Shown: positions 4,509-24,550 of the stretch, in pieces
Layout of the letters: each line of letters begins with the position of its first letter
Position numbering within the stretch: position 1 is the first letter of the stretch
IMG/VR virus record: IMGVR_UViG_3300010883_000380
Location: 1-26,021 of that record
Reading direction: 5' to 3' (one strand)
Source: a virus
DNA: 26,021 nucleotides
Program-made: the position numbers and the translations under genes
The notes under the pieces: model-generated
The model's database searches: none
The model's input: only the letters and a program-made list of their open reading frames with translations
What the model was told of the DNA's origin: nothing

Positions 4509-4724
4509 ATGGTTAAAGAAATGAAATTAAGAATAATGAATGAAACAGGCGACACAAATTTAGTTGTTAATACAGTTGAAATGTGTGAGCAAATAGCAGA
4601 ACACCCAACACATTGGGTTTATGTTGACGGAGATATGATTTCTAGGGAATCTGTAGTCAATGTAGATTGGAATGATGTTGAGTCTGTTAACTTAGTACCA
4701 GCACTTGTTGGCGGAAGTCAGTAA
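4509..4724 (+). CDS. ThiS/MoaD-like ubiquitin-fold protein ending in GG
   Basis: A 71-residue protein that fits the beta-grasp fold of ThiS, MoaD and archaeal SAMPs. An N-terminal strand (MKLRIMNETG) and a helix (TVEMCEQIAEHP) are followed by WVYVDGDMISRE, resembling the ThiS strand VAVNGEIVPR. The segment DWNDVESVNLVPALVGG resembles the ThiS end LxDGDxVEIVxAVGGG. The diglycine is residues 68-69 and is followed by SQ, so a peptidase would have to trim two residues before activation. An E1-like enzyme (9446) and a JAMM peptidase (11263) are encoded downstream. It has the standard GAGGAATAAAA leader. A sulfur-carrier role is the main alternative; the fold call is from pattern, not structure. 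Confidence 0.6.
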   Translation: MVKEMKLRIMNETGDTNLVVNTVEMCEQIAEHPTHWVYVDGDMISRESVVNVDWNDVESVNLVPALVGGSQ

Positions 4725-4875
4725 ATCTGTAAATATTAAGTATATCTTACTATAGACTATAATGTCTATCGGTAATTACTATAGGTCTAGTCTGACTGTT
4801 TAGTAATCCCAATAACGGGAGTTGTTATCTAATGGGTGGGATGCCCGTTAAATCTTATTTAAAGGAGAAAAAAAC
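4725..4875 (+). promoter_or_regulatory. Structured leader of the ribonucleotide reductase gene
   Basis: A 151-base gap before the reductase gene. ATAGAC (4752-4757) pairs with GTCTAT (4764-4769). TAACGGG (4813-4819) pairs with CCCGTTA (4844-4850). The alternative ATAAC (4812-4816) with GTTAT (4824-4828) would exclude the second pairing. TTACTATAG occurs twice (about 4748-4756 and 4776-4784). GGAG lies seven to ten bases before the ATG. The B12 box of cobalamin riboswitches was not found, although the enzyme needs B12. Regulation through RNA structure is possible but unproven. Confidence 0.45.
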
Positions 4876-6798
4876 ATGTATAAAGAAACTCAATTTGCAT
4901 CAGACATAACGCATTTTACTAAATATGCTAAACACAAACCCGAACTAAATAGAAGAGAAACTTGGGAAGAAACTTGTGTAAGAAATCTAATAATGCATCA
5001 AAATAAAATAACAAACGACTATAAAAATATTAATACTCAAAATTTACTTTTACATAAACTATATGACGTTTATGATAATTATGTAATTCCAAAACTAATA
5101 CTACCATCAATGCGCTCTATGCAATTCGCAGGGCGAGCAATAGAACGCTCACCAAATAGAATATACAATTGTGCTTACTTACCAATAGATAATGTTTTAT
5201 CATTTTCAGAAACTATGTATCTTTTGTTGGGCGGAACAGGAGTAGGTTATTCTGTTCAGAAACAACACATAGAACAATTACCGCCAATTAAAAAAGCAAC
5301 ATATTCTATGAAGTATATTATTCAAGATACAATTATCGGTTATGCCGATGCAGTGAAAGTATTGATTCAATCTAATATAGGAGAAATAGATTATATCCCT
5401 GTATTTGATTTAAGTGAGATTAGACCCGAAGGAACTTTGTTAAAAACTACTGGTGGTAAATCTCCTGACCCAATGATTCTAAAAAGATGTTTAGAGAACA
5501 TTTCTAATGTTTTTAATAGTAAACAGAATGGAGAAAAATTAACTCCATTAGAATCACATGATATTCTTTGTTATATTGCAGATGCAGTATTAGCAGGTGG
5601 TATTAGACGTTCAGCAATGATTGCTTTATTTAGTTATGATGATAATGAAATGATTGACTGTAAAAGTGGTGAATGGTGGACTTTTAATGAACAAAGAGGT
5701 ATGGCGAATAATTCTGCTGTATTAGATAGGAATGAAGTTACCCAAAGTGATTTTAAGGTTCTATGGAATAAAGTTCAAAATAATGGTAGTGGAGAACCTG
5801 CATTCTATTTCACCAACGATACAGAGTGGGGAACAAATCCCTGTGTAGAAATAAGTTTAAAACCATATAGTTTCTGTAATCTTTGTGAAGTAAATGTTGC
5901 TAATGTTAAAGACCAATTAGATTTAGAAAAAAGAATAGAGGCTGCTACATTTTTAGGAACATTACAAGCAACATATACAGATTTTCATTATTTACGACCT
6001 ATATGGAAACAAACAACTGAAGAAGATGCATTAATTGGAATATCTATGACGGGTATTGCTAATAATAAAATTAAAGGATTAAATTTAATTAATGCTAGTG
6101 ATTTAGTTAAAGAAAAAAATCAGTATTACTCACAATTAATGAAAATTAATCAATCGGCAAGAACAACTTGCGTTAAACCTGCTGGAACAACTAGCCTAAT
6201 ATTAGGAACAAGTAGTGGTATTCATGCATGGCATTCTAAATACTATATTAGAAGAATGAGAATAGGTAAAAAAGAACCTATTTATAATTATTTATTAGAG
6301 AATATTCCTAAATTAATAGAGTGTGAGATTAAACACAATAAAACTACGGGAGAATCTTATTCTTCAGAACATTCTGCTGTGTTATCATTACCTCAAAAAG
6401 CACCCTATAAAAATAGCATTGTAAGAGATGATGAATCAGCGTTAGATTTACTTAACCGTATTAAATATATTTCAACTAATTGGGTAAAGAATGGACATAA
6501 CAATGGTATTAACACAAATAATGTATCTGCTACTGTTAGTGTGAAACCTAATGAATGGAAAGAAGTTGGTGAATGGATGTGGGATAACAGAATTTCATAC
6601 AATGGTATAGCATTATTACCGTATGATGGTGGTAATTATACACAAGCACCATTTGAAACTATTGATAAGAATAAATTTGAGGAAATGGTTAATATTATAG
6701 AAGATTCTAATTTTAATCTACAAGATATTGTAGAAATAGATGATAATACTAATCTACAATCTGAAATTGCTTGTGCTGGTGGAACTTGTGAAATTTAA
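4876..6798 (+). CDS. nrdJ: Class II (adenosylcobalamin-dependent) ribonucleoside-triphosphate reductase
   Basis: Reduces ribonucleotides to deoxyribonucleotides with a B12-derived thiyl radical, independent of oxygen. It is of the monomeric type, like the Lactobacillus leichmannii enzyme (739 aa), but shorter at 640 residues. C99 (RIYNCAYLP) and C334 (YSFCNL) fit the redox pair. N321-P-C323-V-E325 is the NPCxE radical site. CVKPAGTTSLILGTSSGIHAWH is the usual phosphate-binding and signature region. The C-terminus CAGGTC (633-638) is the swinging dithiol that is reduced by thioredoxin. A viral copy would raise the dNTP supply during genome replication. The host must provide cobalamin. It has a structured leader and a GGAG site. 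Confidence 0.93.
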   Translation: MYKETQFASDITHFTKYAKHKPELNRRETWEETCVRNLIMHQNKITNDYKNINTQNLLLHKLYDVYDNYVIPKLILPSMRSMQFAGRAIERSPNRIYNCAYLPIDNVLSFSETMYLLLGGTGVGYSVQKQHIEQLPPIKKATYSMKYIIQDTIIGYADAVKVLIQSNIGEIDYIPVFDLSEIRPEGTLLKTTGGKSPDPMILKRCLENISNVFNSKQNGEKLTPLESHDILCYIADAVLAGGIRRSAMIALFSYDDNEMIDCKSGEWWTFNEQRGMANNSAVLDRNEVTQSDFKVLWNKVQNNGSGEPAFYFTNDTEWGTNPCVEISLKPYSFCNLCEVNVANVKDQLDLEKRIEAATFLGTLQATYTDFHYLRPIWKQTTEEDALIGISMTGIANNKIKGLNLINASDLVKEKNQYYSQLMKINQSARTTCVKPAGTTSLILGTSSGIHAWHSKYYIRRMRIGKKEPIYNYLLENIPKLIECEIKHNKTTGESYSSEHSAVLSLPQKAPYKNSIVRDDESALDLLNRIKYISTNWVKNGHNNGINTNNVSATVSVKPNEWKEVGEWMWDNRISYNGIALLPYDGGNYTQAPFETIDKNKFEEMVNIIEDSNFNLQDIVEIDDNTNLQSEIACAGGTCEI

Positions 6799-7114
6799 TT
6801 TAAAAAATTACCCTACTTTAGTAGAAGAAAATAACTTTTTACTTATTGAAGAAGATATAATAGATATTGTAGAAAATACAGAGGGTAAATATATTATTAG
6901 AAGTAATTTCAATGCAAGAAAAAAGGGTGAATTATCCCATACTAAATTAATTAAAAATATTGTATATTATGTAATGCATGGATATGCAATAATAAACACT
7001 ATAGATGAATTAGAGAATTATATCTACTATTCAATAGATGTTAAAATAAATAATAAAAAAAATAAATGGAGAAATAAATATGAAAATAAAATTATCAATA
7101 CCAACTGTCGGTGA
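6788..7114 (+). CDS. Hypothetical protein, GTG start, 108 aa
   Basis: Not recognised. The likely start is GTG 6788, seven bases after GGTGG and overlapping the end of the reductase gene. The frame is open further upstream but only inside the reductase. The product begins (M)KFNLKNYPTLVEENNF and looks like an alpha/beta domain with a helical middle (TKLIKNIVYYVMHG) and a strongly basic tail (NNKKNKWRNKYENK). Its 3' end overlaps the next gene by 35 bases, which is more than usual here. The very end of the frame could therefore be chance read-through. Confidence 0.55.
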   Translation: MKFNLKNYPTLVEENNFLLIEEDIIDIVENTEGKYIIRSNFNARKKGELSHTKLIKNIVYYVMHGYAIINTIDELENYIYYSIDVKINNKKNKWRNKYENKIINTNCR

Positions 7115-8402
7115 TGGCGGAAACACAATAAATTCTAGTTTTTTGTTTAGAGCAGAAGAAAAGGACAAAATTCTGTTTAGTAAGTTATACTCAAAAGAAT
7201 TTGTTAAACCCAAAGGCACAGGTTTTATTTATAAAAGCCGTGGTTTAAATAATCGTGGTGAGAAAGTTATTAATTGTGGTAGAGTAACTATAGGAAATAA
7301 TAAAGATGACCCTGTTTTACACACTATATCTACAACTATTAATGATTCGTTATTCCCAACAAAGGTTAGAGATAATAAAAAGACTAATTTTATGAACACA
7401 ATTACATTTAAATATATTAATGGTTCTATGATGTTATTTTATGGTAGAACTAATAAAAGATATTATATTAATGGTATTTTGATAAATAAAGCAGACCTTA
7501 TTAAAGCAATAAGTAAAATCATATTAAGGGCTTCATTAACTAGATGTAGACAACAATTATTTCAGTATATGAGAAAAGTAACACTATTTCCTCATAATGT
7601 TCTTTATGCTTTAGAAAATAGAACGCCTTACCATTTTCAACATGAAATGAGAAAAACAGAAGTAGTAATTAATACTAAATTAATTAATGAAGAAGAATGT
7701 GTATTAGAAATATCTGATGGTATTTGGGGAGCATTAAAAACAAAAGAATTAAGCACTTTTATTGATTATTTTAAATATAATAAGAAGAGAAGTAAAACAT
7801 GGAAAGTAGGAATTACTAATGAGTTCTTATGGGAACAATTAATGGGTGAACCACCTTCAAGAACAGAACTATCTAAAATGACGCAGTGGTTATTACAACA
7901 TAGAACATCTGATTTAATAGAAGATAGAGCAACTAAATTGTTATTTGATATTGCCGCAGAAAACCCTGCTATTGATTTTGTTCAGTTTCGTAACCCACAA
8001 AATAAAGCATTATTTGTACATGGGAAATATTCTGATTGGGTTATAGTGTATATTGGTAAAGGTATGAAGCGAGGAACACAAGATGTAGTAACCTACCAAA
8101 TTAAAACCCCTTCTAAAGAGAAAGGTAATTGGCATGGAATGCATCTTTCAGGTAGTATTTGTATTGATAATGTGTCTAGAGGGTCTAGTATTGGCGACCA
8201 ATTAGTTGCTAGAGCATTAGCGTTGGTTGATGAAAGAATAGCCGCACATCATCTCTATACAATTAAACCCCTTATAACTACGAAATTAATTAATGGGGAT
8301 GTAATTATGCCGAGATTAGATAGAAAGAAATTAAATAGTTGGAATCAATCAAAGGCAAATGAATATGCTTTAAAGCAAGAACAAAAGAGGAATGTAAAAT
8401 GA
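7080..8402 (+). CDS. Candidate E2-like (UBC-fold) protein, 440 aa
   Basis: The C-terminal third has a run of strands (KALFVHGKYSD, WVIVYIGKG, DVVTYQIKTP) leading into WHGMHLSGSICIDN, with C361. This mirrors the E2 active site HPN...NGSICLD, including the histidine nine residues before the cysteine, and a helix follows (DQLVARALALVDERI). The N-terminal 300 residues are unknown. GILINKADLIKAISKI and VTLFPHNVLYAL are loosely reminiscent of the E2-like PRTRC system protein B. The gene has a GGAG leader and couples to TFB through ATGA. Its company (Ubl at 4509, E1 at 9446, JAMM at 11263) gives the idea weight. It could instead be an unrelated viral protein with a chance motif. Confidence 0.42.
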   Translation: MKIKLSIPTVGDGGNTINSSFLFRAEEKDKILFSKLYSKEFVKPKGTGFIYKSRGLNNRGEKVINCGRVTIGNNKDDPVLHTISTTINDSLFPTKVRDNKKTNFMNTITFKYINGSMMLFYGRTNKRYYINGILINKADLIKAISKIILRASLTRCRQQLFQYMRKVTLFPHNVLYALENRTPYHFQHEMRKTEVVINTKLINEEECVLEISDGIWGALKTKELSTFIDYFKYNKKRSKTWKVGITNEFLWEQLMGEPPSRTELSKMTQWLLQHRTSDLIEDRATKLLFDIAAENPAIDFVQFRNPQNKALFVHGKYSDWVIVYIGKGMKRGTQDVVTYQIKTPSKEKGNWHGMHLSGSICIDNVSRGSSIGDQLVARALALVDERIAAHHLYTIKPLITTKLINGDVIMPRLDRKKLNSWNQSKANEYALKQEQKRNVK

Positions 8403-9295
8403 AATGTTCAGAATGTAATTGTATTACAACTTCCTTTGATGAAAGATTAGGTGAAACTATTTGTAATGATTGCGGTCTGATTTTATCAGTAGATATTTTT
8501 GAAGAAACAAGTTCTCCTATGAAGAATAAAAAATTCTTTAGAGAAAAGACAAAGCAACTAAGTTTAGGTTCTATTATTTCATTATCAGATGTTAAATCGT
8601 CAGATAATCATATATTATATAATCAACATATATGGACAACTTATAATAAAACAGAAAGACAATTTAAGTTTTCATCAAGTATATTTTTATCTTATTATAG
8701 TGGTAAACCATTTCTTTCTGAGGTTTATTTAAAATATAAAATTCTTAAAGAAGAACACCTAATAAGAGGACTACCTATTGATGATGTAGCCGCAGGTATA
8801 GTATATTATGTGCTTAAAGAAAAAGGTATTCCTATTTCATTGAAGGGTTTTTCAAAGAAAAGTAAAATACCCACTAAAAATATAATGAGAACTGCTAAAA
8901 AACTAACTAAAAGGTTTGGTAAAGCACATATTTTTAGCGATTTAAATGTTGAAGATATTATTAGTCAAATTATATTAAATTTAAATTCTATAAAAGGGAC
9001 ACCTGATATTAATAATGATGTTAGATTTGATTGTTATAATTTTGTGAGTTATATACAAAGATGTTATGATGATTTTAATTTAACCTTCACAAGAACCCAC
9101 ATAATAACGGCAATATGGATGGTAGGTAGAACACATGTTTCATTAAATATTACTCAATCTGCCCTTAAAGATACTTGTAATATATCGGTACAAACCATTA
9201 AAGACACATCAAGAAAGATTTGTATTAATCTTAATTTAGATAAAACTAAATTAGGACAATATACTATTAAAAATATAATAAGTGGGGTGAGATAA
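8399..9295 (+). CDS. tfb: Transcription factor B (TFIIB homologue)
   Basis: An archaeal-type TFB, 298 residues, which bridges TBP-bound promoters to RNA polymerase. The N-terminal zinc ribbon has C3, C6, C22 and C25 (MKCSECN, TICNDCGLI). A B-reader/linker region follows to about residue 60. The first cyclin repeat includes RGLPIDDVAAGIVYYVLKEK and the helix-turn-helix-like SKIPTKNIMRTAKKLTK. A weaker second repeat carries RTHIITAIWMVGRTHVS and CNISVQTIKDTSRK. The length is normal for TFB. A viral copy could direct host polymerase to viral promoters. GAGG lies eight bases before the ATG, which overlaps the previous stop. Confidence 0.88.
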   Translation: MKCSECNCITTSFDERLGETICNDCGLILSVDIFEETSSPMKNKKFFREKTKQLSLGSIISLSDVKSSDNHILYNQHIWTTYNKTERQFKFSSSIFLSYYSGKPFLSEVYLKYKILKEEHLIRGLPIDDVAAGIVYYVLKEKGIPISLKGFSKKSKIPTKNIMRTAKKLTKRFGKAHIFSDLNVEDIISQIILNLNSIKGTPDINNDVRFDCYNFVSYIQRCYDDFNLTFTRTHIITAIWMVGRTHVSLNITQSALKDTCNISVQTIKDTSRKICINLNLDKTKLGQYTIKNIISGVR

Positions 9296-9296
9296 T

Positions 9297-9443
9297 ATGA
9301 GTATAATGAGTGAAATAGAAATAATGATAACAAATGGAGAAAGTCCTGAAGAAATAGCAAAAGTTATTCTCAGTTCAGGAAATTTTGATGGTAATAGTGA
9401 TGAAGCATTAAGATGTGCAATAGAAATAATAAAGGAGCAATAA
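9297..9443 (+). CDS. Small acidic helical protein, 48 aa
   Basis: A complete small frame between TFB and the E1-like gene, MSIMSEIEIMITNGESPEEI and onward, ending EALRCAIEIIKEQ. It has a ribosome-binding site (GGGGTGAGATAAT) and ends two bases before the next ATG, so it fits the packing of the array. The sequence suggests two or three short helices. No family is recognised. By position it might partner TFB or the E1-like enzyme, but nothing in the sequence shows this. Confidence 0.6.
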   Translation: MSIMSEIEIMITNGESPEEIAKVILSSGNFDGNSDEALRCAIEIIKEQ

Positions 9444-9445
9444 AA

Positions 9446-10087
9446 ATGAAAATAAAAAAATTAAAACAAAGAAAAATATTGATAATAGGAGCAGGTGGGA
9501 TAGGAAGTTATCTTGTATCTTTCCTAGAAAGAATTAGTGAGAGAAGACAACCACTTTATCACATTACTATTTATGATGACGATAAAGTAGAAGAAAAGAA
9601 TTTATCTTATCAGAATTTTAATGTAAGTGATGTTGGTAAAACAAAAGTAAGCGTTGTTGGTAATTCAGTAGGGATAAAACCTGCTATAATTAATCGAGAA
9701 GAATTTCAAGTATTAGTATCTAAACAAATGCATGGATATAAAGGTAAACATCCTTATGACCTTGTAATTTGTTGTGTTGATAATCTTGCGGCTAGAAGAT
9801 TAATGTATAAAGAAGGACATGGAGAAGATTGTCCTGTAAAATGGTTAGACCTTAGAGCGCAAGGTAGAAATGCAGTATTGATTTCTTACAAAGTTAATCC
9901 TATATTAATACCGGATTTACTTGCCGGTGCAGATGGTTCATTTAGTTGCCAAAATGGAGATTGGGATGGTTCTGCTAAAGATGTTAATTCAATGCATATT
10001 GCAATAGCAGGTATTGGAACTCAATGGATTCAACGATGGTTTAATGATAATAATGATGTTGCAGATAAAATGGTGGTGCATGTATGA
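9446..10087 (+). CDS. E1/ThiF-family adenylating enzyme
   Basis: Adenylates the C-terminus of a ubiquitin-like protein. The Rossmann nucleotide loop GAGGIGS is at 15-21. IYDDDKVEEKNL carries D44-46 and N52, followed by DVGKTK (62-67), and VICCVDNLAARR carries D112. C168 (SFSCQNGDW) is a candidate catalytic cysteine before IAIAGIGTQWIQRW, an arrangement also seen in PRTRC-type ThiF proteins. The usual arginine of NLxRQ is tyrosine here (NLSYQ). The two CxxC pairs of MoeB/ThiF are absent. At 213 residues it is a minimal version. I place the start at ATG 9446, eight bases after AAAGGAG, not at the upstream in-frame ATG. The natural substrate would be the GG-ending protein at 4509. Confidence 0.85.
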   Translation: MKIKKLKQRKILIIGAGGIGSYLVSFLERISERRQPLYHITIYDDDKVEEKNLSYQNFNVSDVGKTKVSVVGNSVGIKPAIINREEFQVLVSKQMHGYKGKHPYDLVICCVDNLAARRLMYKEGHGEDCPVKWLDLRAQGRNAVLISYKVNPILIPDLLAGADGSFSCQNGDWDGSAKDVNSMHIAIAGIGTQWIQRWFNDNNDVADKMVVHV

Positions 10088-10320
10088 GGGCATCATCAAA
10101 GGCTCATGTTGAGTATGAAGTGTTAAGATATATTATTAATAAAATAGACTTTACTGAATTAGAAGATAGAATGTGTCCTAAAGATGATAAGAAGTTAGAG
10201 TTGTTAACTAAGCGATTTAATAGTGGTGCAAACTCTATATGTGAACAGATTCAGAATAAAATTAAAAGTAGGAAACATAAACTTCCTAAGAAACATCCTG
10301 CATATGAGGCGAAAGAATGA
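10084..10320 (+). CDS. Hypothetical basic helical protein, 78 aa
   Basis: Not recognised. It overlaps the E1-like gene and the next gene by four bases each, so it is translationally coupled on both sides. The sequence is helical and positively charged towards the end (QIQNKIKSRKHKLPKKHP), suggesting contact with nucleic acid or an acidic partner. It contains two cysteines not arranged as a metal site. Position between the E1-like gene and a run of small zinc proteins is the only functional hint. Confidence 0.6.
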   Translation: MRASSKAHVEYEVLRYIINKIDFTELEDRMCPKDDKKLELLTKRFNSGANSICEQIQNKIKSRKHKLPKKHPAYEAKE

Positions 10321-10574
10321 AGTATATTCATTTCAATATATTAGATAGGGTTCTATGTGGTGCAGAAGCAGAACCCGTTCCAGAAAAATTGGCAAACACT
10401 AGAAGATTGTGTAATGATTGTATTCAAGTTATATGGAAGGAACAGTATAGCAGAAGTTTGCCAACAGAAAGGATTACCATAGCAGAAATAGAATCGAAAA
10501 TAATTGAAGCCAATACACAAACGGAGTTATTACCACCTAAAAAAATAAAACCATTAGCGTGGTGGAAAACATGA
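10317..10574 (+). CDS. Small phage-type zinc protein, 85 aa
   Basis: The N-terminal half has H5, C14 (VLCGAE), C32 and C35 (RLCNDC). This matches a widespread phage zinc-binding layout in which a histidine and a Cys-Gly precede a CxxC pair. The second half is helical and ends in KPLAWWKT. The exact function of this class is unknown, although DNA or protein binding is usually supposed. It is coupled by ATGA overlap to both neighbours. Confidence 0.6.
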   Translation: MKYIHFNILDRVLCGAEAEPVPEKLANTRRLCNDCIQVIWKEQYSRSLPTERITIAEIESKIIEANTQTELLPPKKIKPLAWWKT

Positions 10575-10729
10575 GCAATGACTCAACAAATAATTGCCCT
10601 ACTTGTAAAGAACCAATGAAATTAATGAAGGGAATATCCCATAAATCCCGTTATGATGACGGAACAGCATTGGGATATTATTGTGTTCACTGTAGTGAAG
10701 TAAAAGATATATTAAAGGAGAATGAATAA
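10571..10729 (+). CDS. Small zinc-ribbon protein, 52 aa
   Basis: A complete small frame starting MSNDSTNNCPTCKEPM and ending YYCVHCSEVKDILKENE. C9, C12, C38 and C41 form two CxxC knuckles spaced as in a classic zinc ribbon. The ATG overlaps the previous stop and is preceded by GGTGG. It resembles the ribbons of small phage transcription or replication accessory proteins. No specific role can be given. Confidence 0.65.
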   Translation: MSNDSTNNCPTCKEPMKLMKGISHKSRYDDGTALGYYCVHCSEVKDILKENE

Positions 10730-10730
10730 A

Positions 10731-10970
10731 ATGGTAGAAGATACAGATATAGATGATATAATAGAAGAAGATGTAGGGAATATAATGAATGTAATAGCAA
10801 CTGATGGTTATTATCTTCAAGCACAAGTAGTAAAGGTATCATGTCCTGCTTGTGGTGAGGAATTTTTAGGAACTAAAAGACATGCTGGTGGATTCATAGC
10901 AGGTCATAGAGCCTTTCATGAATTTGAAAATAAGAGAGATGTTATTGTAGAACAGATGGGTGGAATATAA
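10731..10970 (+). CDS. C2H2-like zinc-finger protein, 79 aa
   Basis: After an acidic N-terminus (MVEDTDIDDIIEEDVG) comes a finger with C38 and C41 (SCPACGEEFLG) and H51, H59 and H63 (KRHAGGFIAGHRAFHEF). This is compatible with a C2H2-type fold with a long hairpin, as seen in some archaeal and viral DNA-binding proteins. I prefer ATG 10731, ten bases after GGAG, over ATG 10722, which is only one base from it. The protein ends QMGGI. The near-terminal GG is noted, but the fold is not ubiquitin-like. Confidence 0.65.
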   Translation: MVEDTDIDDIIEEDVGNIMNVIATDGYYLQAQVVKVSCPACGEEFLGTKRHAGGFIAGHRAFHEFENKRDVIVEQMGGI

Positions 10971-11266
10971 TGAGTCCGAGTCCAATTAAGCAGAAATATC
11001 AATGCCAAGCATTAGTCAAACAACCAAGATGGATGCCCACTAGATGTAAAAATGGCGCACAAGAAGGAAAGAACTGGTGTGGTGTGCATATCAAGACGCA
11101 AGGAACAGTTGACCCACAGACTCAATTTAAGGGTGATGAAGACTTCCACCCTAATCCTAAGAAGGCAGATGTATATTACGAGTTGCTACATTATCTTTAT
11201 CACAATATGAACGATGAACAATTAGATAAAATAGATGAGCAGTTAAGAAGTGAGATGAAAATATGA
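10970..11266 (+). CDS. Small zinc protein with CxnCxnCxxH motif, 98 aa
   Basis: The N-terminal 45 residues carry C12 (YQCQAL), C26 (TRCKNG), C37 and H40 (NWCGVH). This spacing is typical of a very common small zinc motif in phage and bacterial proteins (CxAxxxxGxxCxNxxxxxxxYCxxH). A helical C-terminal part (KADVYYELLHYLYHNMNDEQ) follows. The gene at 23245 has the same cysteine/histidine pattern, so the window encodes at least two members. It overlaps its neighbours at TAATG and ATGA. Its function is unknown; it lies directly before the JAMM peptidase. Confidence 0.65.
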   Translation: MSPSPIKQKYQCQALVKQPRWMPTRCKNGAQEGKNWCGVHIKTQGTVDPQTQFKGDEDFHPNPKKADVYYELLHYLYHNMNDEQLDKIDEQLRSEMKI

Positions 11267-11832
11267 ATGAAGAAAAAATAGAAAAAGAAGAAGAAGAAGA
11301 AAATAAAGCAATGAAAGACTTTGATTGGAAGAACCACATCAGAGATGTATATAAGGATATGAATAATACCGAAGGTGGTGTTAATTTTATTAGTCCTTGC
11401 CAAGATAGTGAGGTGTTTTTAACATCAATTTGGAATATGTCTATGGATGTATTAGATGGTATGGAAGTGCAAGTAGTTATTGACGACAAAGATGATTTGT
11501 ATATCAGTAGTGGTTCAGCATCATATGTATCTTTTGAAAATCATGAAGATGAATTAGTAAATGGTGCGCCAATGAGAATACCAATTAAATCATGGATTCA
11601 TACCCATCCATTTGGTGAGGCTTACCTTAGTGGAACAGATTGGAAAACAGTAAAGACATGGCAACCTATTATGAAAAGTGCTATTGTGTTAGGTGATAAT
11701 CAATACCTTGCAGTGAACATGGATAATGCTAGATATGAAAAGGGAACTTTTTCAGCAAAGAAAGTTTATTATGGATTATTAGAACAAACTAATTTTGGTG
11801 ATGTAGAACCTATGATGGAAGGTGAAGAATAA
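11263..11832 (+). CDS. JAMM/MPN+ metalloprotease (deubiquitinase-like)
   Basis: A zinc isopeptidase of the JAB1/MPN+ family, 189 residues. The motif HTHPFGEAYLSGTDW gives H113, H115, S123 and D126 with the exact JAMM spacing (HxH-x7-S-x2-D). E68 in GMEVQVVID is a plausible catalytic glutamate. The surrounding strands (VQVVIDDKDDLYISSG, KSWIHTHP, KSAIVLGDNQYLAVN) fit the MPN fold. The N-terminal 20 residues are highly acidic. Family members cleave ubiquitin-like proteins from targets or trim their precursors; the GG-SQ terminus of the protein at 4509 would be a natural substrate. RadC and phage tail-assembly K proteins share the fold, but RadC motifs and an NlpC domain are absent. Confidence 0.87.
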   Translation: MNEEKIEKEEEEENKAMKDFDWKNHIRDVYKDMNNTEGGVNFISPCQDSEVFLTSIWNMSMDVLDGMEVQVVIDDKDDLYISSGSASYVSFENHEDELVNGAPMRIPIKSWIHTHPFGEAYLSGTDWKTVKTWQPIMKSAIVLGDNQYLAVNMDNARYEKGTFSAKKVYYGLLEQTNFGDVEPMMEGEE

Positions 11833-17858: not shown

Positions 17859-19085
17859 ATGAATGAAGATATGAAAAATGAAATAATGAAAGCAGCAGAA
17901 ATACTCGGTTTAACCGAGGAAGATGCAATGAGTAAGTTTGAGGACATTTGTGCCAAGAACAATCTTGATGTATCTAAAGAACCCTTGTTAGCAAGAGGTC
18001 TTTGGCGACAGTATTTTAGTAGTGCGAGAAACATACTAACCCGCGAAAGACAACCAACTAACACAAACAATTCTTTCTACAAGAAAGCGTTTGGGTTCTT
18101 TGTATCGTTAGATGAAGCAGTTGATATAATGGCTTTAGATAGAGATAGAGTAGTTAAAGAATACAATAGAGATAGTGATTTAACTTACTCTCTTGGTAAA
18201 GTAGCAATTTTTGCTCCAACAGATGATGGAAAATACGAAGGAAGAATGATGAGGGATAGTGAAGAAAGAAGTAAAATTATGGATGAACTACCTGAAAATA
18301 ATGTAGTATTAGATAATGGACTATTTTTAGTGCCATTGAATACTAATGATGCAGAATGGAATAAAAAGAACTATGGTAAACCTACTAAGGCTTCAGAGTG
18401 GAGAAGGACAGGAATATTTGTAGGAGAAGTTGATGGAAGAATGGGAGCATTCGCCTTTAGTTACAAAGGTGAGTCTTGTTTAACATTTACACCAACAACG
18501 TTTGAGTGGGTTCATTTTGATTCATTCTTTATGAACGAAGATTATACAAGTATCTTTGGTGGTAAATCTAGAACTATGGAATCATTAATTCTTAACGATG
18601 ATTTAGCAGAAGAAGATGATAATAAGAGGCAACCCTTTGGTGTTGTTCAAGATATAATTATGGAATACTGTACTGAAAATTACAGTCCATTGGTTGATTT
18701 AGAACAGGCACATAGTAATGCAGCAGCAAGACCTTACAAACAAAAATATATTGTTACTGATGGCACAGTTACTAGTATTAATATGACCCCAACTGGAAAT
18801 GGTAATAGGATAATTAACATTGATGATTTAACAACAGAATTTAATTTTGATAATGATGGCTTTACTGCCACTACTTGTTGGACACCTTCATCATTAGTAA
18901 TTGATTTTGGTATTGGTTCTGAAGTTATAATTGTAGGGCGCACTAGTCAGGGAACTGATGATGAAGGCGCATTAAGACCAGTAACCATTAATGTTAGTGG
19001 AATATATGTTATCAATGCTAGAGGCGGAAGCCCAGAGTTAATTGAGCATGTTGAATCAGAAGAAACCGATTGGTTCTTTGATTGA
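17859..19085 (+). CDS. Probable RPA-like single-stranded DNA-binding protein
   Basis: A 408-residue protein. Its C-terminal part looks like an OB fold: YIVTDGTVTSINMTPTGNGN, then INIDDL, GSEVIIVGRTSQGT and PVTINVSGIYVI. It ends HVESEETDWFFD, an acidic tail with aromatics like those by which SSB proteins and T4 gp32 recruit partners. The N-terminal 250 residues may hold another OB fold (GRRTGIFVGEVDGRM-like strands near 180-200) but are not recognised. Its neighbours are Sak4-like recombinase, clamp and polymerase. The start has GAGGAAATAAAA. The name rests on fold pattern and context. Confidence 0.5.
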   Translation: MNEDMKNEIMKAAEILGLTEEDAMSKFEDICAKNNLDVSKEPLLARGLWRQYFSSARNILTRERQPTNTNNSFYKKAFGFFVSLDEAVDIMALDRDRVVKEYNRDSDLTYSLGKVAIFAPTDDGKYEGRMMRDSEERSKIMDELPENNVVLDNGLFLVPLNTNDAEWNKKNYGKPTKASEWRRTGIFVGEVDGRMGAFAFSYKGESCLTFTPTTFEWVHFDSFFMNEDYTSIFGGKSRTMESLILNDDLAEEDDNKRQPFGVVQDIIMEYCTENYSPLVDLEQAHSNAAARPYKQKYIVTDGTVTSINMTPTGNGNRIINIDDLTTEFNFDNDGFTATTCWTPSSLVIDFGIGSEVIIVGRTSQGTDDEGALRPVTINVSGIYVINARGGSPELIEHVESEETDWFFD

Positions 19086-21263: not shown

Positions 21264-22934
21264 ATGATAATCAATGAAATAAAAAATGGAATAGGGTTAA
21301 GGTGGAGAGAGAACGGTGAAGTTAAAGAAAAAATTGTTACTCTCAAAGAATTTCCACACTACTTTTTTATTAAGGCTACATCTACTAGACATACTGACTT
21401 GTTAGTTAAAGATAACAATACTAGAGGGAAGTTTAAGATTGAGTTAAATTATGAAATGGGTGAATGGAAATCTCTTAATGGTGATTTATTAGTTAAAGTA
21501 ACATGGGGAACTAAATCTCCCAGTCTTAAATATCAAATTAGAGAACAATTAGAAGAATTAGGTGTTGATACTTATGAAGCAGACATCCCACATCATTATC
21601 GTTATACTGTTGATTGTATTGATAAGATACCAGAATATAAAATGCGTAAGTGTTTTTGGGATATGGAATGGCAAATAGGTGGTGAACATGATGGTAAGAT
21701 TACATGTATAGTTGCGTATGATAACTACGATAGTAAGTACAATACTTTTGTTTGGTTTCCTAGTGGAACGGTGTTAGCAGATATTAAGAATGTTAATATA
21801 TTTACATCAGAAGAAGATATGTTAAATGCATTCTTAGAATATATTGTTAATAAAAGACCCGACATGTTAATCTCTTGGTTCGGATGGAAGTTCGACTTAC
21901 CTAAATTAATAGAAAGGAATACTGTTTATAATATTGATTCTAGATTACTGTCGCCATATAATGAAGTTAGAGGTGTTTCTTGGAATGAAGATAAAGTTAA
22001 AATCTATCCTAAACATATACATGATTCTTCACCTGTGTCGCAACCAATAAAAGGTTTAATTACAGTAGCATTAGATTTAGTATTTGAAAGACAATGGAAC
22101 GATGCACAACGAGGAACATTACCTTCTATGGCTTTGGATTATATTTCTGAAACTGTTTTAGGAGATAATAAATTAGTTAGTGAAAAGTTTCCTGATAAAA
22201 ATGACTTCTTTAGAAGGGCATGGTTAGAAGACACTAAAACATATTTAGAATATGCTTTAAAAGATGTAGAACTTATTAAAAGAATTGATGAAGAAAACCA
22301 TTGTATTGATTCAGTATTAGCACTACAAAAATTACTAATCGCACCCTTTGATGCTTGCTTCTATGCAAGTAATATGGGTGGAATATATTTCATGCGTAAT
22401 GCTTCTTGGAAAGCACCGACAGGTAAGAAAGGAGAACGGGTTAATTATGAAGGGGCTATGATATACAATCCTTTGACTGAAGGCACAAATGGACTTCATC
22501 ATAATGTAGCGGCATTTGATTTTGCTTCTCTTTATCCATCAATGATAATTTCACGGAATATTTCTTGGGAATCTAAATCTGCAACTCCTACTGAGTTCGC
22601 AGTTAACTTAGCAATACCTAGAGATTTTAGTGAAGTTAAAGAAGAGAATATGCTTTACTACAAGACCGATGAATTAGGTTTGTTACCTAAATCTTTAATT
22701 GGACTGAAAGAATTAAGAAACCAATACAAAACAAATATGAAAGAAGCATCAACCAAAGATGATAAGATTAAATGGAATAATAATCAGATGGCGGTCAAAA
22801 GGCTCATGGCGAGTTTTTACGGCATCACGGCGTATCAAGGATTTGGTTGGGCAGACATTGATTTAGCCGCTAGTATTACTGCTAGTGCTAGAGAAGCAAT
22901 TAGAGCAGCAGCATTTAAGGTGAGAGAATTATGA
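21264..22934 (+). CDS. polB: Family B DNA polymerase, N-terminal part (exonuclease, palm A/B, fingers)
   Basis: A 556-residue piece of PolB. The 3'-5' exonuclease motifs are Exo I DME (133-135), Exo II WFGWKFD (205-211, lacking the usual asparagine) and Exo III YALKD (330-334), so proofreading looks intact apart from that change. Motif A is FDFASLYPS (D419). Motif B is KRLMASFYG (512-520), with alanine where asparagine is common. The protein ends AAAFKVREL, just where motif C should begin; motif C is encoded separately at 23624. The two products must associate for activity, as in the split PolB of Methanothermobacter. Standard GAGGAATAAAA leader. Confidence 0.93.
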   Translation: MIINEIKNGIGLRWRENGEVKEKIVTLKEFPHYFFIKATSTRHTDLLVKDNNTRGKFKIELNYEMGEWKSLNGDLLVKVTWGTKSPSLKYQIREQLEELGVDTYEADIPHHYRYTVDCIDKIPEYKMRKCFWDMEWQIGGEHDGKITCIVAYDNYDSKYNTFVWFPSGTVLADIKNVNIFTSEEDMLNAFLEYIVNKRPDMLISWFGWKFDLPKLIERNTVYNIDSRLLSPYNEVRGVSWNEDKVKIYPKHIHDSSPVSQPIKGLITVALDLVFERQWNDAQRGTLPSMALDYISETVLGDNKLVSEKFPDKNDFFRRAWLEDTKTYLEYALKDVELIKRIDEENHCIDSVLALQKLLIAPFDACFYASNMGGIYFMRNASWKAPTGKKGERVNYEGAMIYNPLTEGTNGLHHNVAAFDFASLYPSMIISRNISWESKSATPTEFAVNLAIPRDFSEVKEENMLYYKTDELGLLPKSLIGLKELRNQYKTNMKEASTKDDKIKWNNNQMAVKRLMASFYGITAYQGFGWADIDLAASITASAREAIRAAAFKVREL

Positions 22935-23245
22935 ATAATGAAAAACCAATAACACTATCAGAGGCTATTACACAAATGGTGAAACTACATAACTTAACAG
23001 AAAAAGAATATAATGGCTTAATAGAAATGGAAGAATTCAAATTAAGAGTTAATAGAAATTCAACAACAATGGAACAAGCCCAACAAACATTCTCAATAGA
23101 AGCAGTATCGGGAATGACGGCTACTTTCCATATTTGGGTATTAGGTAGAATGATGGCTAAATGGGCAGGAGATGATTGGAGTTTAGATAAAGCCCCACAG
23201 ACTTTATCCATTACAGCCAAAATAGATTGGAGCAATGATTTATAA
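22931..23245 (+). CDS. Hypothetical protein inside the split polymerase locus, 104 aa
   Basis: Not recognised. The ATG overlaps the PolB-N stop (ATGA) and follows GGTGAGAGAATT, the same site used at 1738. The N-terminal half is helical (LSEAITQMVKLHNLTEKEYN). The second half is strand-rich with tryptophans (TFHIWVLGRMMAKWAGDDW, LSITAKIDW). There are no homing-endonuclease, intein or intron-maturase motifs, so it does not explain the split. It overlaps the next small gene by one base. Confidence 0.6.
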   Translation: MNNEKPITLSEAITQMVKLHNLTEKEYNGLIEMEEFKLRVNRNSTTMEQAQQTFSIEAVSGMTATFHIWVLGRMMAKWAGDDWSLDKAPQTLSITAKIDWSNDL

Positions 23246-23340
23246 TGAGCAAAAAATGTAGAAAAAATAAATGTAATAATTTAATATTACCAAACCATAA
23301 GTTATGTTTTTATCATATTTTTTGGGGGGATGAAGAATGA
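23245..23340 (+). CDS. 31-residue zinc-motif peptide
   Basis: MSKKCRKNKCNNLILPNHKL followed by CFYHIFWGDEE. C5, C10, C21 and H24 reproduce the CxnCxnCxxH pattern of the longer protein at 10970, so this is a minimal single-knuckle relative. It starts at a TAATG overlap and ends at ATGA with the next gene. A T6G6 tract (23318-23329) inside it also supplies purines for the next ribosome-binding site. The function is unknown. Confidence 0.55.
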   Translation: MSKKCRKNKCNNLILPNHKLCFYHIFWGDEE

Positions 23341-23627
23341 GTAAGATAGAAGATGAAGTATGTGAGAAAATTCAGAATAGAGCAGAGCAAGCAAGGGTGG
23401 AAAAACCCTGTCCTAAGTGTGGTCATGCTGATTTAAAATATAACAATAAGACTATGGAACGAAATGACTTAACTAATGAAGAGTGGTTAATTCACGCTCA
23501 AGAAGAGGCTATGGATTTAGCGGTGTATTTACAGAAACTAATCACTACACAAATACCTTCTAACTCAACACAAGAACTTAAATCAATAAGAAAAGAATAT
23601 ATTAAATCAAAGAGGGATTTTAAATGA
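23337..23627 (+). CDS. Zinc-knuckle protein with a MazG-like helix, 96 aa
   Basis: A CPKCGH knuckle (C25, C28, with C9 a possible further ligand) is followed by NEEWLIHAQEEAMDLAVYLQ. The EExxD pattern (E56, E57, D60) recalls one metal-binding helix of MazG-type nucleotide pyrophosphohydrolases, and this exact style of helix is common in small phage proteins. A full MazG needs a second acidic helix, which I do not see. Nucleotide hydrolysis is therefore only a suggestion. It sits between the two polymerase pieces with ATGA overlaps. Confidence 0.5.
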   Translation: MSKIEDEVCEKIQNRAEQARVEKPCPKCGHADLKYNNKTMERNDLTNEEWLIHAQEEAMDLAVYLQKLITTQIPSNSTQELKSIRKEYIKSKRDFK

Positions 23628-24550
23628 AAGTAGTTTACGGACACACTGATTCTATTTATGTTAAATGTGATGATATAGAAAAAGCAAAAGAAGTTTGTAA
23701 TGAGGTTAACGATTATGTAAGAACTTTCTTTCCTAATATATTAGGATTAGAAGAACATCCTGTAACCTTAGAGTTTGAAAAGTATTACAAATCGTTAGGA
23801 GTAGGTGCTACCAAAAATAGAAATGCTGGATTAATAACTTGGAAAGACGGAGAATATCTTGAAGAAGATGAATTTGTCCTTACTGGTTTTTCTGCTAAGA
23901 GAGTTGCACAAACTAAATTAGCAAAGGAAACACAAACGAAAGTATTACGAATGTGGGTTGATGGAGTTGAAGAAGAAGAGATTTCTACTTACTTACATGG
24001 ATTATTTAATAAAGTTATTTCCGGCGATATAGAACTATCAATGCTTACTAATCGAACTAGATACCGTGAAGAGAGATTCAAGGTGAAATGTATGGGTGAA
24101 TGTAAAAAAATGAAATGGGGAAAGGTTTTCTCACTATCAGAAGTCATTGAGAATATCGAAATACACCGCAATACTTTTTCTAGTGATAATTGGAAATGTT
24201 GTAATAATCCTAACCTACGAACAATTCAAGATAAGAAACCAGTAATTGGTTCAGGTATTGAAGGAGTTTTGTATTACAATTCCTTTAACGAAGTCCCTAT
24301 TGATGATTCATATTTATACATGAAAATTAAGAATATTAGTAATACTTATATTCATCCATTAACTCAAAAAGACACAGTGCCATCTTGGATTGCAGGTAAA
24401 CAAGAAAATGAATTACTTAGTTTTACTCCTGATTATTTGCACTATGCTTATCAGATTGTTAATAAAGCAGAACCAATTTACAAAGCAATGGAATGGGATG
24501 TAAATAATATTATAAGAAGTAGGCATCAAGATTTGGAGGATTGGTTTTGA
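23624..24550 (+). CDS. polB: Family B DNA polymerase, C-terminal part (motif C and thumb)
   Basis: The 308-residue remainder of PolB. It opens at motif C, VVYGHTDSIYV (4-13), where YGDTDS is standard: the catalytic second aspartate (D9) is kept but the first is histidine. The palm end and thumb follow (LEFEKYYKSLGVGATKN, LTGFSAKRVAQTKLAKE). The end reads HQDLEDWF, a PIP-like tail for the clamp. Joined to the piece at 21264 the total would be about 860 residues, a normal PolB size, with little missing. GAGGGATTTTAA precedes the ATG, which overlaps the previous stop, so it is translated on its own. Confidence 0.92.
   Translation: MKVVYGHTDSIYVKCDDIEKAKEVCNEVNDYVRTFFPNILGLEEHPVTLEFEKYYKSLGVGATKNRNAGLITWKDGEYLEEDEFVLTGFSAKRVAQTKLAKETQTKVLRMWVDGVEEEEISTYLHGLFNKVISGDIELSMLTNRTRYREERFKVKCMGECKKMKWGKVFSLSEVIENIEIHRNTFSSDNWKCCNNPNLRTIQDKKPVIGSGIEGVLYYNSFNEVPIDDSYLYMKIKNISNTYIHPLTQKDTVPSWIAGKQENELLSFTPDYLHYAYQIVNKAEPIYKAMEWDVNNIIRSRHQDLEDWF

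Follow-up and report, generated by a model that had tools for sequence, protein, structure and literature searches.

The 26,021-nucleotide stretch of viral DNA analysed here (IMG/VR record IMGVR_UViG_3300010883_000380, positions 1 to 26,021; referred to below as the window) encodes a ubiquitin-like protein (Ubl), an adenylyltransferase of the E1/ThiF superfamily (E1), a metallopeptidase of the JAMM family and a candidate conjugating enzyme (E2 candidate). These genes probably constitute a virus-encoded, reversible ubiquitin-like conjugation module, which is similar to the PRTRC cassettes of plasmids in its working but is not a member of them. A first-pass annotation of the window had proposed that the open reading frames (ORFs) starting at positions 4509, 7080, 9446 and 11263 form a complete ubiquitin-like pathway among the replication genes of an archaeal virus. 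All four ORFs are present at these positions. Independent evidence is available for each of Ubl, E1 and JAMM, but the E2 step of the proposed pathway has no significant UBC match. The families and motifs of Ubl, E1 and JAMM, and the fixed linkage and order of the genes, are observed features. The module is real, conserved and functionally coherent, and it differs from PRTRC in several membership features.

The window is a replication region of a magrovirus (Magrovirales). Almost all coding is on one strand, and the GC content is ~31%. The replication genes encode an SF1 helicase, a B12-dependent ribonucleotide reductase (RNR), a transcription factor B (TFB), an ATP-dependent ligase, the small subunit of replication factor C (RFC), a PCNA-like protein, PolB in two parts and a Cas4-like nuclease, where the names of the ligase, RFC and PCNA are a reading of the sequence. 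The closest relatives of the window are IMG/VR contigs of up to ~100 kb. The window is assigned to Magrovirales because its gene set and GC content agree with the description of Aoguangviridae/Magrovirales by the International Committee on Taxonomy of Viruses, according to which these viruses of Poseidoniales have genomes of 90-110 kb with 31.5% GC and encode PolB-NTD/CTD, TFB, RFC-S, PCNA and SF1. The archaeal-virus setting proposed earlier is thereby specified as that of Magrovirales.

Conservation and order of the genes

The loci collected extend for 6 kb or more upstream and 5.5 kb or more downstream of the E2 candidate gene and were dereplicated at 95% identity of the E2 candidate. The order Ubl-E2 candidate-TFB-E1-JAMM is observed in all 81 non-redundant loci and, when a larger set is used, in 100 of 102 loci. 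One of the two exceptions lacks only TFB, and the other (L268) has no Ubl within its 6.1 kb of upstream sequence. The latter is not a proven loss of Ubl, because Ubl is located 0.5-6.7 kb upstream of the E2 candidate in other loci. The pairwise identity of the E2 candidates across the loci is as low as 22%. A further set was anchored at the ligase gene; it is chosen independently of the module genes and avoids selection by the module. JAMM, E1, TFB and the E2 candidate are present in 36 of its 36 non-redundant loci and Ubl in 24, the sequences of the other 12 ending within 5.3 kb upstream of the E2 candidate. Relatives of JAMM are encoded in at least 289 IMG/VR stretches. Each of the 12 near-complete magrovirus genomes encodes one E1; a second match in one of them appears to represent the same gene split by contig ends. 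These results strongly bear out the co-occurrence across related viral contigs that had been suggested as a check of the pathway, and no relative that keeps E1 or JAMM without the other genes is seen.

Ubl, E1 and JAMM proteins

The product of gene 4509 looks like a β-grasp protein of the ubiquitin-like (ThiS/MoaD/Ub) class, as judged from its predicted structure and its homologs. The AlphaFold2 model (pLDDT 89.8, pTM 0.77) has the order strand-strand-helix-strand-strand-short helix-strand. When this model is compared with the PDB by Foldseek, the top 50 matches are nearly all ubiquitin-fold proteins (SUMO, ISG15, ubiquitin, Dsk2 and Mth1743) with probabilities of ~0.7-0.99. Pfam ThiS is matched by eight of the 42 Ubl homologs (best 8.4e-4), and every other family by four homologs at most. 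The GG is kept in all 105 distinct Ubl ORFs and is followed by no residue in 12, by one or two residues in most and by four to nine in a few. These results agree with the earlier description of this protein as a ThiS/MoaD-like protein ending in GG-SQ and speak against a fold other than β-grasp.

The product of gene 9446, proposed earlier to be an E1/ThiF enzyme, is a stand-alone member of the ThiF/E1 superfamily and is nearest to plasmid PRTRC ThiF. An alternative, longer start of the ORF is located at 9413. The protein matches PF00899 at 7.4e-19. Its best NCBIfam model is PRTRC_ThiF (TIGR03736; 1.5e-16, 60.5 bits as compared to a cut-off of 144.75), with ThiF close behind, and all 29 aligned homologs match PRTRC_ThiF. 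When the magrovirus E1s are aligned with 14 plasmid PRTRC ThiF proteins by hhalign, the score is 99.7% over 170 columns, and Cys168 is paired with the SC motif of PRTRC. G15xGGxG20, D44, K67, D112 and Cys168 are conserved in the magrovirus E1s, and Cys168 is a candidate for the catalytic cysteine of the predicted enzyme. The UbaA profile gives only 37 bits as compared to a cut-off of 450.

The product of gene 11263 is assigned by its sequence to the Prok-JAB/JAMM peptidase family. Its motif, H113-T-H115-x7-S123-x2-D126, is intact in 141 of 142 homologs, the lone exception being truncated at a contig end, and E68, H113, H115, S123 and D126 are invariant in the complete homologs. PF14464 (Prok-JAB) is matched by 17 of 19 divergent relatives (best 2e-4), while the window protein alone gives no Pfam match. 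When all proteins of the window are shuffled, the perfect motif noted in the first-pass annotation arises by chance in only 1.2% of cases. The magrovirus JAMMs align with PRTRC A by hhalign (E ~1e-4, 28% identity, ~77 columns around the motif). The PRTRC JAB has an N-terminal JAB-N domain with a conserved Arg and Trp; in the alignment of the magrovirus JAMMs, Trp57 is invariant and no Arg ahead of the motif is.

Table 1. Module genes of the window and the genes located between them
Predicted product	Position	Strand	Length (aa)	Features
Ubl, ubiquitin-like protein	4509..4724	+	71	β-grasp model; C-terminus VGG-SQ, GG at 4710-4715
E2-like candidate	7080..8402	+	440	C-terminal domain; invariant Cys361 (8160-8162) in GSICID (residues 358-363, 8151-8168)
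Viral TFB	8399..9295	+		TFIIB family 8.2e-9; Zn_Ribbon_TF 2.4e-5
E1/ThiF adenylyltransferase, stand-alone	9446..10087	+	213	PF00899, PRTRC_ThiF; GAGGIG, D112, candidate catalytic Cys168 (9947-9949)
Small zinc-finger protein of C2H2 type, gene located between those for E1 and JAMM	10722..10970	+		Ends QMGGI; GG conserved near C-terminus
JAMM/Prok-JAB metallopeptidase	11263..11832	+	189	H113xH115x7S123x2D126 at 11599-11640; E68 at 11464-11466

E2 candidate

The E2 role of gene 7080 is likely, but unproven. The N-terminal ~260 residues of its product have no known relatives. Cys361 is the sole invariant cysteine of the protein (all 51 aligned homologs and all 57 homologs of another set), and its context in most homologs is G-x-[IF]-C-[IV]-D-[ND], which resembles the E2 signature (NGNICLDIL in yeast Ubc4). 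The AlphaFold2 model has a helix at residues 276-294, strands at 298-344, an extended segment at 354-360, Cys361 and a helix at 371-383; in this model, the order of secondary structures around Cys361 is that of E2. A profile of the E2 candidates gives no match among PDB sequences. Their alignment contains no invariant His downstream of Cys361, unlike PRTRC-type E2s. When the alignment is searched against GTDB genomes, no cellular relative is found, and the only two contigs that match (L113 and L114, in Altibacter and Maricaulis metagenome-assembled genomes) are apparently misbinned magrovirus DNA.

The motif G-x-[ILVFP]-C-[LIV]-[DN] arises by chance in 7% of shuffles of the window proteins, and a second copy, GVVCID, presumably accidental, is present in the window gene at 2134. 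For these two reasons the motif alone is not significant. The GG of Ubl, the JAMM motif and Cys361 are taken as real features because they are conserved across homologs. The earlier proposal that gene 7080 encodes an E2-like protein therefore stands as regards the invariant cysteine, the E2-type motif and the topology, but not as regards a significant UBC match by Pfam, Foldseek or hhalign.

Proposed mechanism and alternative interpretations

From the features described above we infer the biochemistry of the module, the E2 role of gene 7080 and the targets as follows. JAMM would trim the residues past the GG of Ubl (0-2, rarely more). E1, probably as a homodimer, would adenylate the GG end and then hold Ubl as a thioester on Cys168. 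The 7080 protein would take Ubl on Cys361 and hand it to lysines of the target, from which JAMM would strip it off again. The tag may go on factors for transcription or replication, whether of the host or of the virus, with use of the host proteasome, which is proposed because the virus encodes none: rhodanese, the ATP_bind_3 tRNA thiolase, proteasome and ParB are all absent from the 12 near-complete genomes. Transcription factors are the first guess for the targets, because viral TFB is encoded inside the module and because there is a precedent in Haloferax, in which the TATA-binding protein TBP2 is reported to be tagged and degraded by the host proteasome (PMC4895103). Replication proteins, which the first-pass annotation had suggested along with defence proteins, are the second guess.

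Several observations weigh against this mechanism. The similarity of the Ubl model to ubiquitin folds is limited to template modeling scores of ~0.4-0.5, with E ~6e-3 and none below 0.001 in the Foldseek search of the PDB. The Arg of the N-x-x-R-Q motif of ThiF/E1 enzymes is substituted in the magrovirus E1s (residues 52-56), mostly by Tyr. No E2 match is obtained in the Pfam scan of the 51 E2-candidate homologs, UBC folds are weak among the Foldseek matches (probabilities of 0.44, 0.16 and 0.16), and the alignment shows no conserved HPN motif of the kind present in classical E2s. The hhalign comparison of the C-terminal domain with yeast-type UBC sequences covers only 15 columns around the Cys and is not significant. 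The module genes are spread over 3.7-10.4 kb in the 102 loci, with unrelated genes interspersed. Finally, shared ancestry accounts for part of the co-occurrence, because all loci come from one viral order; the core module has therefore been retained by selection, rather than assembled repeatedly and independently.

Because gene 7080 shows no E2 homology in the Pfam scan, among PDB sequences or in profile comparisons, and its fold matches are weak, Ubl, E1 and JAMM might constitute a three-part tagging system of the SAMP/UbaA type that works without E2. Gene 7080 would then encode something else, such as a DNA-associated viral protein, and its Cys motif would be coincidental, as the chance GVVCID elsewhere in the window illustrates, or serve other chemistry. 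We know of no E2 in archaeal SAMP conjugation, which also favours this interpretation. However, gene 7080 is linked to E1 and JAMM as strictly as Ubl is, and Cys361, the sole invariant cysteine, lies at the E2 position after the β sheet and before a helix, so that a module without E2 is unlikely, though not negligibly so. It is considerably less probable that Ubl is a sulfur carrier of the ThiS/MoaD/Urm1 type, which acts with host enzymes in tRNA thiolation or cofactor synthesis and is only matured or recycled by JAMM. Such a role would account for ThiS being the only repeated Pfam match of Ubl, for the nearly equal fit of the ThiF and PRTRC_ThiF profiles to E1, and for the several Ubls that terminate in GG itself. 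In contrast, the linked Cys361 protein and JAMM suit conjugation better, and neither rhodanese nor the thiolase is found in any of the 12 genomes.

Capture of a true PRTRC cassette, which would serve replicon maintenance as on plasmids, is very improbable, although E1 is nearest to PRTRC_ThiF, the set of roles is comparable and the setting is one of replication. The E1 score lies far below the cut-off of PRTRC_ThiF, Ubl and the E2 candidate cannot be aligned with PRTRC C and B, ParB is missing and the genes are not contiguous. A conjugation module that resembles PRTRC in its working only is the interpretation that we prefer.

Comparison with known systems

Bacterial operons of Ubl, E1, E2-like and JAB genes were predicted by Iyer et al. 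(2006), and the gene content of their type 6d is that of PRTRC (PMC1779556). Like the magrovirus module, PRTRC/type 6d consists of separate Ubl, E2-like, JAB and rhodanese-free E1 genes on mobile elements. The magrovirus E1 is rhodanese-free and has JAMM 1.2 kb downstream, and the magrovirus Ubl is a small, predicted β-grasp protein with conserved C-terminal Gly. Membership in PRTRC was nevertheless rejected on the basis of the E1 score below the TIGR03736 cut-off, the absence of ParB and the lack of a conserved His downstream of the E2 Cys. Profile comparisons with PRTRC C and B give no signal for either Ubl or the E2 candidate. The PRTRC helical protein F is detected in none of the 12 near-complete genomes, a search in which the control is likewise silent. 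Unlike PRTRC, the module is present in archaeal viruses, and its genes are interspersed with those for TFB, RNR and zinc fingers.

The archaeal SAMP1/2-UbaA-HvJAMM1 system shares with the module a β-grasp modifier with C-terminal GG, an E1 and a JAMM, but the magrovirus E1 is not of the UbaA type, and the module is virus-encoded and contains a linked E2-like protein. Type II CBASS (Cap2/Cap3) and 6A-MBL share the E1/JAMM chemistry and a mobile or defence context. In contrast to these systems, the magrovirus E1 is a single domain encoded separately, rather than an E2-E1 fusion, and no nucleotidyltransferase effector is adjacent. The Caldiarchaeum Ub-E1-E2-Rpn11 operon contains all four roles, with JAMM-type processing of the Ub precursor; the magrovirus module differs from it in being viral and in having no clear UBC homology, and no RING E3 is seen.

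Analogous gene sets in bacterial phages

The E1 searches also reached bacterial phages. In crAss001 (L101), genes for a Ubl-like protein (gp79), a Cys-containing protein (gp78), a JAMM (gp77, HSHNNM..FFSGTD) and an E1 (gp76) are located beside those for primase and helicase. Matching gene sets are present in cr106_1 (L110), Flavobacterium phage FpV4 (L102) and the marine contigs L016 and L017. Such analogous sets in phages unrelated to magroviruses speak for the conjugation module proposed here. Like magroviruses, crAss001, FpV4, L016 and L017 carry Ubl, a Cys-containing E2 candidate, JAMM and E1 in the replication region. Unlike in magroviruses, these genes are contiguous in the order Ubl-E2 candidate-JAMM-E1, the hosts are bacteria (crAss001 and FpV4), and the phage Ubls contain K-x-K-S-G and, in most cases, an extension of considerable length. 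The phage and magrovirus E1 profiles align at 99.25% (hhalign, E 5.6e-20) when an alignment set free of circularity through L016 and L017 is used. The phage JAMMs can be aligned with PRTRC A (96%), as can the phage E1s with PRTRC ThiF. Only position and motif suggest the roles of the phage Ubl and E2 candidates, because neither aligns with its magrovirus or PRTRC counterpart. The E1 motif of L016 and L017 that corresponds to N-x-x-R-Q is NIGGQ. The phage set is followed by one further gene without assigned function (gp75 in crAss001).

Other genes of the window

With one exception, TFB separates the E2 candidate from E1 in every non-redundant locus. The zinc-finger protein encoded between E1 and JAMM is possibly a cofactor, a target or a second modifier of the module. 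Its homologs have a GG within eight residues of the C-terminus in 75 of 90 distinct cases, usually with one residue after it, and a second clade of homologs has no C-terminal GG. The B12-dependent RNR is encoded at 4876-6798, between Ubl and the E2 candidate; no RNR match is found at the corresponding place in relatives with ~80% identical E1 (e.g. L002, L003 and L007). PolB is divided between an N-terminal and a C-terminal ORF, which flank two small ORFs (21264-24550), as is also reported for Aoguangviridae. The protein encoded at 17859-19085, beside RFC, has no Pfam or NCBIfam match; it is ~90% identical among near relatives and is one of the most conserved magrovirus proteins without assignment.

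Implications

We know of no earlier description of a virus-encoded pathway that comprises an activator, a tag, an enzyme that probably transfers the tag and one that removes it, and whose gene arrangement is preserved throughout an entire order of archaeal viruses. No paper that pairs magrovirus with ubiquitin is present in the literature collection searched. Ubiquitin, ThiF and JAB go unmentioned in the magrovirus papers covered, to which Philosof 2017 and Prabhu 2025 do not belong, and an earlier gene label is possible.

A broader proposal, which is offered tentatively as possible rather than probable, is that essentially all magroviruses have their own complete E1-E2-Ubl-JAMM pathway, the E2 of which represents a new sequence family, that in crAss-like and Flavobacterium phages this logic has emerged, or has spread, separately, and that the GG-ending zinc-finger protein may be a second modifier. 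The module supplies defined proteins for expression and testing, and it is relevant to the question of how E2 enzymes originated. Among the viruses that infect marine archaea, magroviruses belong to the most abundant. If the conjugation reading is correct, a function could be assigned to conserved genes that are now labelled 'thiamine biosynthesis' or 'hypothetical' in abundant ocean viruses and in crAss-like phages. The linkage of the module genes in a fixed order beside the genes for DNA copying suggests that a viral tag is placed on proteins during infection. Prokaryotic viruses would then themselves use ubiquitin-like tagging, beyond meeting it as a host defence (CBASS and Bil).

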